Shown: positions 1 through 40,231 of the stretch, in pieces
Layout: the number at the start of each line of letters is the position of its first letter
Numbering within the stretch: position 1 is the first letter of the stretch
Source of the DNA: Desulforadius tongensis
GTDB lineage: Bacteria > Bacillota > Desulfotomaculia > Desulfotomaculales > Desulfohalotomaculaceae
Direction of reading: 5' to 3'
NCBI RefSeq assembly: GCF_016907915.1
Contig: NZ_JAFBCW010000027.1
Location: 1 to 40,231, forward strand
DNA length: 40,231 nt
The notes under the pieces: model-generated
Told to the model about the DNA's origin: nothing
The model's database searches: none
Seen by the model: only the letters and a program-made list of their open reading frames with translations
Made by a program: the position numbers and the translations under genes

Positions 1-93
1 AGGTTTATCAGGAGCCGTATACGAGGCCCGTACGTACGGTTCTGTGAGAGGGATAACGCCGTAGCAAATTACTGCGGCGTTACCCTACTCGAT
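1..93 (+). mobile_element. Group II intron, 3' end only (domains V and VI)
   Basis: Positions 12-42 fold as a domain V: GAGCCGTA (12-19) pairs with TACGGTTC (35-42), a two-base CG bulge sits at 33-34, and an upper stem TACG/CGTA closes a five-base loop. The linker TGTGAGAGG leads into a domain VI hairpin (about 50-85, arms AACGCCG and CGGCGTT) with an A at 82 placed like a branch-point adenosine. The intron appears to end CTACTCGAT at 93, matching the AT/AC end typical of group II introns. The 5' part, including any reverse transcriptase gene, lies outside the window. The subclass cannot be decided from this fragment. Confidence 0.88.
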
Positions 94-3433: not shown

Positions 3434-3616
3434 AAAATGCGTCACATCGATGAACGCAAAATCGATGAAGAGGAGTAGTAAATGGTGCAGCTCTGCAGAG
3501 AGCCGTCGGTTGGTGCGAGACGGTGAGCGTAACATTGAACTCGCCTCTGAGATGCATGGGGGATATGTACTCCATGACGGTTGGTGGCCGTTATACACGT
3601 CAAGCGGGTAATTCGT

Positions 3617-3692
3617 GGGGCTGTAGCTCAGCTGGGAGAGCGCTTGAATGGCATTCAAGAGGCCAGGGGTTCGAGCCCCCTCAGCTCCACCA
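3617..3692 (+). tRNA. tRNA-Ala (anticodon GGC), CCA encoded
   Basis: This is a complete 76-nt cloverleaf. The acceptor stem GGGGCTG (3617-3623) pairs with CAGCTCC (3682-3688) and includes the G3-U70 pair that marks alanine tRNAs. The D arm is GCTC/GAGC, and the anticodon stem CTTGA/TCAAG holds the loop ATGGCAT with anticodon GGC. The variable loop has five bases, the T arm AGGGG/CCCCT holds TTCGAGC, and A73 and CCA are encoded. It lies between the T-box Stem I/II region and the antiterminator, so it is transcribed from the leader promoter and upstream of the T-box terminator. RNase P processing at 3616/3617 would cut the leader in two. Confidence 0.97.
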
Positions 3693-3728
3693 TTTTACTA
3701 CCAACTAGGGTGGTACCGCGGGAGAAAA

Positions 3729-3760
3729 GCTCTCGTCCCTATAAGGGGCGAGGGCTTTTG
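3729..3760 (+). terminator. T-box regulated intrinsic terminator
   Basis: GCTCTCGTCCC (3729-3739) pairs over 11 bp with GGGGCGAGGGC (3745-3755) around TATAA, followed by TTTT. It lies directly after the T-box sequence and shares bases with the antiterminator, as in classical T-boxes. Confidence 0.92.
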
Positions 3761-38550: not shown

Positions 38551-38579
38551 TTGACATGCTTAATTTTAGCAGATAAACT
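38551..38579 (+). promoter_or_regulatory. Consensus-like promoter between era and the mgtE leader
   Basis: TTGACA (38551-38556) and TAAACT (38574-38579) are spaced by 17 bases. The predicted start is near 38586, only about 13 bases before the hairpin terminator at 38599. A second, weaker pair TTCACT (38621-38626) and TATAAA (38643-38648) lies downstream of that hairpin. Confidence 0.75.
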
Positions 38580-38598: not shown

Positions 38599-38624
38599 AG
38601 CCTTCGTTTAAGAAGGCTTTTTCA
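38599..38624 (+). terminator. Rho-independent terminator between era and mgtE
   Basis: AGCCTTC (38599-38605) pairs with GAAGGCT (38612-38618), followed by a T-run. It probably ends the era transcript and may also stop transcripts from the promoter at 38551. Confidence 0.87.
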
Positions 38625-38659
38625 CTGCTGTTTTAGTTTTTTTATAAAATTTTCGGGTT

Positions 38660-38790
38660 GAGGAGGTAAGTAAATGGACGCTGACCCCGGAAGTTTGCGC
38701 AACAACCAAATAATTAAGGAGCGTCTAAACTTACCCCTTCAATTACAGGCGGTAACGATGGGCGCTCCGTAAAGAAAGGAGAGTGCTCAT
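38660..38790 (+). promoter_or_regulatory. Putative translation-attenuation switch of mgtE
   Basis: Four segments can be seen. A (38660-38682) holds the leader ribosome site and start; B is 38718-38739; C is 38761-38768; D (38778-38788) holds the mgtE ribosome site. A and B can form a stem of about 19 pairs. B also pairs with C over 8 bp (GGAGCGTC with GGCGCTCC). C can instead pair with D (GCGCTCC with GGAGAGTGC, one bulge). A:B with C:D would hide both ribosome sites, while B:C would free D. No M-box riboswitch is recognisable here. Pairings were found by eye. Confidence 0.6.
38674..38772 (+). CDS. 32-codon leader peptide ORF upstream of mgtE
   Basis: The ORF has AGGAGGT at 38661-38667 and ATG at 38674, an excellent ribosome site, and encodes 32 residues beginning MDADPGSL and ending TMGAP. 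It stops 18 bases before the mgtE GTG. The acidic and proline start resembles in style the MgtL leader peptide of enteric bacteria (MEPDP), where translation of the leader senses low magnesium; similarity is by pattern, not shown homology. The ORF covers RNA segments that pair in mutually exclusive ways with each other and with the mgtE ribosome site. It is too short to judge by coding statistics, so translation is inferred from the start signals and context. Confidence 0.68.
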   Translation: MDADPGSLRNNQIIKERLNLPLQLQAVTMGAP

Positions 38791-40134
38791 GTGTTAAAAC
38801 CGGAAGAAAGATTAGAAATATTAAAGTGTTTAAATCAGAACTCTTATGCAGAACTGCGCCAGTGTCTGAAGGAACTGCACGCGGCGGATATTGCCGAGCT
38901 GCTTCCCACCCTGGCTCTACCCCAGCGCATTAAAGTTATGCGCCTGGTTGACAAAAGCAAGGCTTCTGATATTCTTTTTCAACTGCATAAAGATGAACTG
39001 CCGCCGCTGCTGGAAGGTCTTGGCCCCAAGCGTACCGCTGAGATAGTGGGGCAGATGTTTACAGACGATGCCGCCGATTTGCTGGGGGAACTGCCGGAAG
39101 AGCAGAAAAACATTTTGCTGGGATTGATGGAAGCGGCAGAGGCTGAAGACATTCGTGAACTGCTGCGTTATGATGTGGACACTGCCGGTGGTTTGATGGC
39201 CACCGAGTATGTTGCCGTGAAAAAAGATATTACTGCGGCGGAGGCCATAAATATACTGCGTAAAATTGCCCCCGATGCCGAAACGGTTTATTATGTATAT
39301 GTTACCAATGAGCGGGAACAGCTGGTTGGAGTAATATCTTTGAGGGAGTTAATCGTAGCCCGGCCCGATACACTTATTGAAGACATTATGCGCACCAAAG
39401 TGATAAGTGTACACGTGCGCACCGACCAGGAAGAAGTGGCCAAAATGATGTCTAAATATGATATTTTGGCCGTTCCGGTGGTCAATGACGACATGCAGCT
39501 GTTAGGTATTATTACCTTTGATGATGTGATGGACGTTATGGAAGAAGAGGCCACCGAAGATATGATGCGCCTGGCGGGCAACATCGAACCCGAAGGGCAG
39601 GAAATGGAGAGCAGTTTTTGGACCAGGGCCGGTAAAAGACTGCCCTGGCTGATCGGTTTATTATTTGGGGAATTGTTAGCGGGAAACGTTATCGGCAGTC
39701 TTTCTGAAACGCTGGAACGTATGACCGCGCTGGCCTTTTTTATCACTGCCCTGGCCGGCGGCCCGGGTAACGCCGCTTCACAATCCCTTACAGTGGTGGT
39801 CAGGGGATTGGCAACCGGAGAAGTAAGCAAAAACAAGATCTTATCTGTGGTGTGGAAGGAAACCCAGGTGGGTCTGCTGGTGGGGGTGGTATGCGGAACG
39901 CTGCTGTCGGTAATGGCTTACATATGGCAGCAGTCAACAATCCTGGGCCTGGTGGTGGGCCTGTCCCTGGCCGTATCTATAGTGATAGCAACTGTGCTGG
40001 GCAGCATGGTGCCGGTGATGATGAACCGCCTGGGAGTGGACCCGGCGCTGGCATCGGGCCCATTCATTGCCACCCTGATGGATATTACCAGTATGATGAT
40101 TTACTTCGGCCTGGCCACGCTTTTAATACTGTAA
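38791..40134 (+). CDS. mgtE: Magnesium channel MgtE
   Basis: MgtE is a magnesium-gated Mg2+ channel. The 447-residue protein has an N-terminal superhelical domain (about 1-125, with ELHAADIAELLPTL and TDDAADLLGELPEEQ), two CBS domains (about 130-250, with TAGGLMATEYVAV), a connecting helix and five membrane helices (about 285-447) with the GGPGNAASQSLTVVVRG pore-region signature. GTG at 38791 has AAAGGAGAG about eight bases upstream. The ATG at 38789 is in another frame and soon stops. The gene looks complete. A minus-strand group II intron ends four bases after its stop codon. Confidence 0.96.
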   Translation: MLKPEERLEILKCLNQNSYAELRQCLKELHAADIAELLPTLALPQRIKVMRLVDKSKASDILFQLHKDELPPLLEGLGPKRTAEIVGQMFTDDAADLLGELPEEQKNILLGLMEAAEAEDIRELLRYDVDTAGGLMATEYVAVKKDITAAEAINILRKIAPDAETVYYVYVTNEREQLVGVISLRELIVARPDTLIEDIMRTKVISVHVRTDQEEVAKMMSKYDILAVPVVNDDMQLLGIITFDDVMDVMEEEATEDMMRLAGNIEPEGQEMESSFWTRAGKRLPWLIGLLFGELLAGNVIGSLSETLERMTALAFFITALAGGPGNAASQSLTVVVRGLATGEVSKNKILSVVWKETQVGLLVGVVCGTLLSVMAYIWQQSTILGLVVGLSLAVSIVIATVLGSMVPVMMNRLGVDPALASGPFIATLMDITSMMIYFGLATLLIL

Positions 40135-40138
40135 AGGA

Positions 40139-40231
40139 ATCGAGTAGGAGGGAGTGATTAACTCCCGTCCTCTCACACCACCGTACGTACCGTTCGGTAT
40201 ACGGCGGTTCATGTTGTGGAACGAAGTTCAT
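40139..40231 (-). mobile_element. Group II intron, 3' end only (domains V and VI)
   Basis: Read on the minus strand, domain V covers 40208-40177: ACCGCCGTA pairs with TACGGTGGT, with a CG bulge and an upper stem TACC/GGTA closing GAAC. GTGAGAGG leads to a domain VI hairpin (about 40170-40147, arms GGGAG and CTCCC). The intron ends CTACTCGAT at 40139, the same end as the left intron. The two copies differ elsewhere, so they are related but distinct introns. The 5' part lies beyond the window. Confidence 0.88.

Follow-up and report, generated by a model that had tools for sequence, protein, structure and literature searches.

A conserved, putative leader-peptide switch upstream of the magnesium channel gene mgtE in Desulforadius tongensis and other Bacillota

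We analyzed a 40,231-nucleotide stretch of Desulforadius tongensis DNA (contig NZ_JAFBCW010000027.1; here, the window). Near its right end the gene order is era, a promoter-like site, a small hairpin followed by a run of Ts, a short leader ORF, and mgtE, which encodes a Mg2+ channel or transporter (Table 1). The leader ORF has a near-perfect Shine-Dalgarno (SD) sequence that is well spaced from its start codon, and its stop codon adjoins segment C and lies 18 bases upstream of the mgtE GTG. The original prediction, made without database searches, had claimed a 32-codon ORF with a near-ideal ribosome site before mgtE, beginning Met-Asp-Ala-Asp-Pro, and this held in the sequence. The combination of an SD and MDxDP occurs at a single site in the whole genome (two overlapping matches), and the mgtE paralog of the same genome (40% identity, L002; L numbers are our labels) has no such leader upstream. 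A Pfam scan gave no match for the leader peptide. At and below gathering scores, an Rfam scan found no family at the leader, only a chance miRNA model (E 0.33), and the M-box covariance model (RF00380) had no match in the window or in this genome.

Table 1. Features of the leader region and mgtE, in window coordinates
Feature	Position	Strand	Remarks
Promoter-like site, TTGACA-17-TAAACT	38551..38579	+	Between era and leader; 10/12 consensus
Terminator-like hairpin, GCCTTC-GTTTAA-GAAGGC-TTTTT	38599..38623	+	Between promoter-like site and leader
Segment A (leader SD and first codons)	38658..38686	+	Pairs with B in MFE fold
Leader SD, GAGGAGG	38660..38666	+	From sequence; kept in relatives
Leader peptide ORF, MDADPGSLRNNQIIKERLNLPLQLQAVTMGAP, ATG (38674) to TAA, 32 aa	38674..38772	+	Frame and N-terminus kept in three relatives
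Asp2-Ala3-Asp4-Pro5 codons, proposed ribosome-destabilizing stretch	38677..38688	+	M-[DE]-x-x-P motif; MgtL Glu2/Asp4 precedent
Segment B	38718..38742	+	5' part GGAGCGUC (38718-38725) able to pair with C
Segment C, anti-SD side	38753..38768	+	GGCGCUCC (38761-38768) pairs with B or D
mgtE SD, AAAGGAG	38775..38781	+	From sequence
Segment D (mgtE SD edge and start codon)	38779..38796	+	Pairs with C in closed state
mgtE, start GTG 38791	38791..40134	+	Pfam MgtE_N, CBS, MgtE

The terminator-like hairpin was found by script and by eye, and a stricter terminator scan did not report it. Hairpins of this kind are present in other leaders too. It is possible, as an inference, that the hairpin is a leftover M-box expression platform whose aptamer has been lost.

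At the other end of the window, a complete tRNA-Ala gene (GGC, 3617 to 3692) lies inside a T-box leader (RF00230, 127.6 bits; 3456 to 3743), upstream of a putative acyl-CoA synthetase ORF. The stretch with the T-box and tRNA is kept at 84 to 92% identity in four other genomes of the family, and a tRNA nested within a T-box is a very odd arrangement. A group II intron match lies at the left end of the window (10 to 93), and the minus strand at the right end (40140 to 40231) resembles, by eye, the 3' terminus of such an intron; both ends of the contig probably fall at intron copies.

The minimum free energy (MFE) fold of positions 38658 to 38800 consists of helices A:B and C:D, with an energy of -47.1 kcal/mol; shuffles gave -32.0 kcal/mol (z = -3.84), and none of 200 reached the stability of the native sequence. 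As an alternative, GGAGCGUC in B can pair with GGCGCUCC in C through eight pairs, one of them G-U. Compared with shuffled versions of B, the A:B helix of the window is better than expected (p = 0.014) and the B:C duplex is borderline (p = 0.052); B:C is also not significant in the relatives L055 and L057. The original prediction had proposed exactly these alternative foldings, A:B plus C:D or B:C, and this held, the former as the MFE fold and the latter as a possible duplex. Its claim that the first folding hides both ribosome sites held only in part: D spans only part of the mgtE SD plus the start codon. The mean pairing probability of the mgtE SD alone is 0.44.

The same leader precedes mgtE in three relatives: L003/L056 and L004/L055, which belong to the genus of the window, and L057, a genome from another genus of the family. 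The ORF frame, the MDA(D/E)PG start, and the pairings are kept in all three relatives, so conservation, which had been set beforehand as a test that could refute the original prediction, was passed. The peptide begins MDADPG in the window, L055, and L057, and MDAEPG in L056. In the order window, L056, L055, L057, Pro5 is encoded by CCC, CCG, CCT, and CCA and Ala3 by GCT, GCT, GCG, and GCA, and this synonymous variation indicates constraint at the protein level. A 3-base gap among the relatives preserves the leader frame. Over the whole ORF, nonsynonymous codon differences outnumber synonymous ones (12:3, 9:6, and 13:5 in the three pairs of the window, L003, and L004) because the middle of the peptide drifts. 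The helices A:B, C:D, and B:C are kept in 91 to 97% of cells (95.1% for A:B plus C:D, 96.9% for B:C), compared to 31 to 59% for slid versions. The covarying pairs that had been looked for amount to one double change in B:C, from A-U to G-C; pair counts did not exceed letter shuffles (253 and 239 of 500 were as high), four close sequences being too few. A covariance model built from the four close leaders scores all of them at E 5e-27 or better and, when run against 113 genomes of the order, recovered no others. The next match (L074, E 0.006) was rejected, with no transporter nearby.

We also searched 113 order-level and 398 phylum-level genomes for regions upstream of mgtE; a class-level search covered the same 113 genomes as the order search, and the phylum search was cut at E 1e-110, leaving out more distant mgtE genes. 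From 117 regions we removed a partial duplicate (L116), one with no start found (L096), and one with too little upstream DNA (L104), giving 114. A short ORF with an SD and the start M-[DE]-x-x-P is present in 31 of the 114 regions; after dinucleotide shuffling of these regions the mean is 0.46 and the maximum 3. Other motifs of comparable shape occur in 0 to 2 regions. Expressed as a share of ORFs with an SD, the motif accounts for 31/162 in mgtE regions versus 8/1390 in control DNA. Examples are MDGDPSRQ, MDADPSRR, MDSDPKQHS (ending at its stop codon), MESVPWRR, MEGNPRSS, and MDSYPPCS. The motif spans 17 families, although the 31 regions are not independent: some are close (L083/L085/L087, L182/L188, L162/L183), and there are 17 family labels. 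Because the motif was first noticed in the earlier regions, only the last 40, fetched after it was fixed, constitute a clean test; nine of these have the motif, with a mean of 0.2 and a maximum of 2 in shuffles. The motif is absent from 83 of the 114 regions. In a control of 49 mgtE regions from other phyla, it was found in 3 of 34 ORFs with an SD, which is not significantly fewer than 31/162 (p = 0.21). These three matches (L008, L026, and L052) are Flavobacteriales/Bacteroidetes by title, two are near-identical, and their coding-frame status is unsettled. Computation shows that the ORF, the motif, and the pairings exist and are conserved beyond chance, the four-sequence pair counts alone excepted.

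For structural comparisons we used 30 leaders, which are the 31 motif regions without L137 (left out by hand). Their peptides are 9 to 34 residues long, and a TTGACA promoter-like site was found upstream of 23 of them by regular expression. The leader ends at most 29 bases from mgtE in 17 of the 30 and 44 to 82 bases upstream in 13. B:C could be scored in 25; L060 has no upstream partner, and B is too short in L085, L146, L157, and L162. In 18 of these 25 evaluable leaders the B:C duplex outperformed duplexes with shuffled B (p ≤ 0.05), and A:B was better than shuffled in 11. Mutually exclusive A:B plus C:D and B:C folds are a model prediction, borderline for B:C in the window and stronger across the set. 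One further leader, L126 (MDSHPEPSDYC...), precedes a distant mgtE; it falls outside the strict set owing to its weak SD, and its B:C-like helix is followed by TTTTT and could act as a transcription terminator.

We modeled ribosome positions as equilibrium folds with blocked bases, without kinetics. With the leader SD and first codons blocked, opening the mgtE SD cost 2.65 kcal/mol less on average across the 25 evaluable leaders; with B shuffled, the corresponding figure was -0.27 kcal/mol. In the window, the opening cost is 5.3 kcal/mol without a ribosome, 1.8 to 3.0 kcal/mol with a ribosome on codons 1 to 6 (1.8 to 2.8 at codons 2 to 6), and again 5.3, equal to the value without a ribosome, on codons 8 to 22. 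At codons 27 to 29 it is about 2 kcal/mol, the mgtE site opening again once C is reached. These folding models of the window leader support the claim that a ribosome on the early codons covers A and favors B:C, with the qualification that a ribosome near the end of the ORF would likewise free the mgtE site. Because the last codons lie within C, full translation could also open that site, and the direction of the response is therefore unsettled by computation. Among long ORFs, an early ribosome lowers the opening cost in 13 of 17 and raises it in one; the effect is weak in short ORFs (lower in 4 of 13, higher in 2 of 13), and absent in the model of L055. At later positions the maximum cost rises above the early value in 16 of 17 long ORFs and in 11 of 13 short ones.

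The original prediction had named M-box riboswitches as the usual control in Firmicutes; relatives often carry an M-box ahead of Mg2+ transporter genes, and none is present at this locus. In many genomes of the order M-boxes lie upstream of mgtE or corA, and some of them immediately follow era; unlike the window leader, they are large metal-binding aptamers. An Rfam scan detected an M-box in 12 of 20 chosen upstream loci, and in five of those 12 (L060, L159, L161, L169, and L185) an acidic or acidic-proline leader lies between the M-box and mgtE. No M-box was detected in 53 of the 113 genomes of the order. Strict leaders and M-boxes are anti-correlated in the order (M-box in 1 of 9 leader genomes and 59 of 104 others, p = 0.012), but this was uncorrected for relatedness and we give it little weight.

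Leaders also precede corA. In nine of 30 loci fetched for their M-box, the stretch from this element to a CorA-like gene contains a short M-E-E-x-P ORF (e.g., MEESPHRR, MEEIPNRR, MEELPNRR); the gene was identified as CorA by Pfam for L192 and by likeness of the protein start for the other loci. M-box loci consequently failed as control DNA: 10 motif ORFs were found there, and nine were leaders between M-box and corA. Other leader starts at M-box/corA loci are MDDPYPG, MEDPYPG, MADPDPAG, MADPEPSG, and MPDPDPSG. A conserved peptide, MEESPHRR...GGDPHDQNLFL and kin, lies between M-box and corA and overlaps the corA start in L192, L194, L196 to L199, L204, L205, and L215; we infer, from sequence alone, that such peptides are a second leader type, placed behind a riboswitch. 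By a motif-free measure, the count of D, E, or P in residues 2 to 6 of the best-SD ORF, three or more were found in 19 of 53 mgtE regions with such an ORF, 10 of 16 corA regions (23 examined), and 20 of 844 control windows.

Two enterobacterial leaders invite comparison. MgtQ, the leader of Salmonella mgtB, carries D2, P4, and E5, of which D2 and E5 are required for MgtB at low Mg2+, and its stem-loops 1:2 and 3:4 (OFF) or 2:3 (ON) form around the mgtB ribosome binding site (RBS) (PMC8092293). This is a closer precedent than any named in the original prediction. Like MgtQ, the window leader is a short ORF with its own strong SD before a Mg2+ transporter gene, has acidic residues among its first five codons (D2 and D4), and is predicted to exchange mutually exclusive stem-loops that free the transporter RBS, a form of translational control. 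MgtQ, however, has eight codons, lies in an operon between mgtC and mgtB, serves the transporter MgtB, and belongs to enterobacteria with PhoP-driven transcription. The leaders described here precede MgtE channel genes in Bacillota, begin M-[DE]-x-x-P, and have 9 to 34 residues, and the window leader has its own promoter-like site; the mgtC-mgtB context is not met, the setting being era-mgtE and the transporter MgtE.

MgtL, the leader of mgtA in E. coli and Salmonella, has E2, P3, D4, and P5; its effect is lost when E2 and D4 are changed (PMC11282234). The comparison with MgtL, drawn in the original prediction, held residue by residue: MDADP and M-E-P-D-P share acids at positions 2 and 4 and Pro5, so that the EPDP-like start is met, and both leaders precede a Mg2+ transporter gene and have mutually exclusive folds (PMC11282234, PMC11552253). 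MgtL differs in controlling Rho-dependent termination of mgtA rather than an RBS (PMC11282234, PMC11552253), the gene downstream here is mgtE instead of mgtA, and no sequence relation between the two systems has been shown for either transporter or RNA. Because the leader appears to work like MgtQ but failed the context tests for both MgtQ and MgtL, we did not file it as a member of either. In the positions of their residues the leaders described here match MgtL, and in the logic of their predicted RNA folds they match MgtQ, but they precede genes for MgtE and CorA. Neither MgtE nor CorA is related to MgtA and MgtB, which are P-type pumps. The mgtE motif SRC-65-1 is also a structured RNA before mgtE with the SD held in a stem, but it is reported only from Thioalkalivibrio and filed as a riboswitch candidate, not as an upstream ORF (PMC11109978). 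We did not find a leader peptide of this kind before mgtE or corA in Firmicutes in the literature searched, which excluded most subscription papers.

We propose a cis-acting translational switch of mgtE driven by an early-aborting leader peptide. In untranslated RNA, A:B and C:D would form and keep mgtE closed at its start (OFF). Once a ribosome sat on the leader start or first codons, A would be covered, and B could displace D from C, exposing the start of mgtE (ON). At low Mg2+, ribosomes would let go early because of the nascent M-D-A-D-P; loading at A would continue while few ribosomes got as far as B, so that B:C would win out and mgtE would be expressed. With ample Mg2+, ribosomes would pass through and cover B, allowing C:D to re-form (OFF).

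Ordinary translational coupling would need no sensing: a ribosome finishing the leader would melt C:D and reinitiate at mgtE, 18 bases downstream. The position of the window stop codon next to C fits this explanation, as do the drop in modeled opening cost with a ribosome on the last codons and the 17 of 30 leaders that end close to mgtE. We nevertheless consider coupling unlikely, given the 13 leaders that end 44 to 82 bases upstream, with ORFs down to 9 codons, the fact that the common part is the N-terminal motif and not the leader end, and the better-than-shuffled B:C in 18 of 25, a helix that coupling does not require. Still less likely is a slow-decoding leader that uses the same A to D switch to sense proline or charged tRNA-Pro, EF-P, or general translation stress. 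Pro5 varies hardly more than the acid at codon 2, and the paper on MgtQ describes a response to charged tRNA-Pro by mgtP, the mgtCBR leader (PMC8092293). Against this, there is mostly only one Pro codon, acidic variants without Pro5 occur before mgtE (MESDDDY and MESEEGD, behind M-boxes), and the leaders we examined sit at Mg2+ transport genes.

It is similarly very improbable that the leader RNA is a metal-binding riboswitch and the ORF merely incidental. A structured, conserved RNA before a Mg2+ channel gene would suit this reading, and M-boxes are common at such genes in relatives; however, no Rfam family is found at the leader, the peptide start is conserved across families whose RNA sequences differ, and the synonymous codon changes mark the leader as coding. 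An SD-like run and hairpins could arise without function, since control DNA alone holds 1390 short ORFs behind such a run, but the conservation, the held-out motif test, and the fold z-score all but rule out chance.

Having weighed these alternatives, we consider it nearly certain that a real, conserved, translated-looking regulatory leader lies before mgtE. Control of mgtE by early abortion of leader translation at low Mg2+ is the best explanation and, in our judgment, a likely one. Leaders of like kind are proven in Salmonella and E. coli, which supports the abort model by analogy; the Mg2+ link is inferred from the position of these leaders before mgtE or corA, sometimes right behind an M-box. 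Against the abort model stand the purely computational nature of the evidence, without experiment, and the many mgtE regions without the motif. The overall interpretation of the original prediction is supported, whereas translation in vivo, ribosome drop-off, the Mg2+ signal, and the response and its direction remain inferred.

A bolder reading, which taken as a whole we favor by only a narrow margin, is that these leaders form an unrecognized class of Mg2+ sensor in Bacillota in which the sensor is the ribosome. Leaders with Asp/Glu/Pro-rich starts would abort at low Mg2+ and free the start sites of mgtE and corA, channel genes unrelated to each other, replacing the M-box in some lineages and acting in series with it in others, and the M-[DE]-x-D-P start would have arisen independently of enterobacterial MgtL. 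In the literature searched, nascent-chain Mg2+ sensing is so far limited to a few enterobacterial leaders. The natural set of leaders provides ready-made sequences for finding the residues that make the ribosome let go. If the reading is true across Bacillota families, the state of the ribosome would be a general, probably convergent proxy for cellular Mg2+, and such leaders may explain how Mg2+ uptake is controlled in some genomes without a detected M-box.
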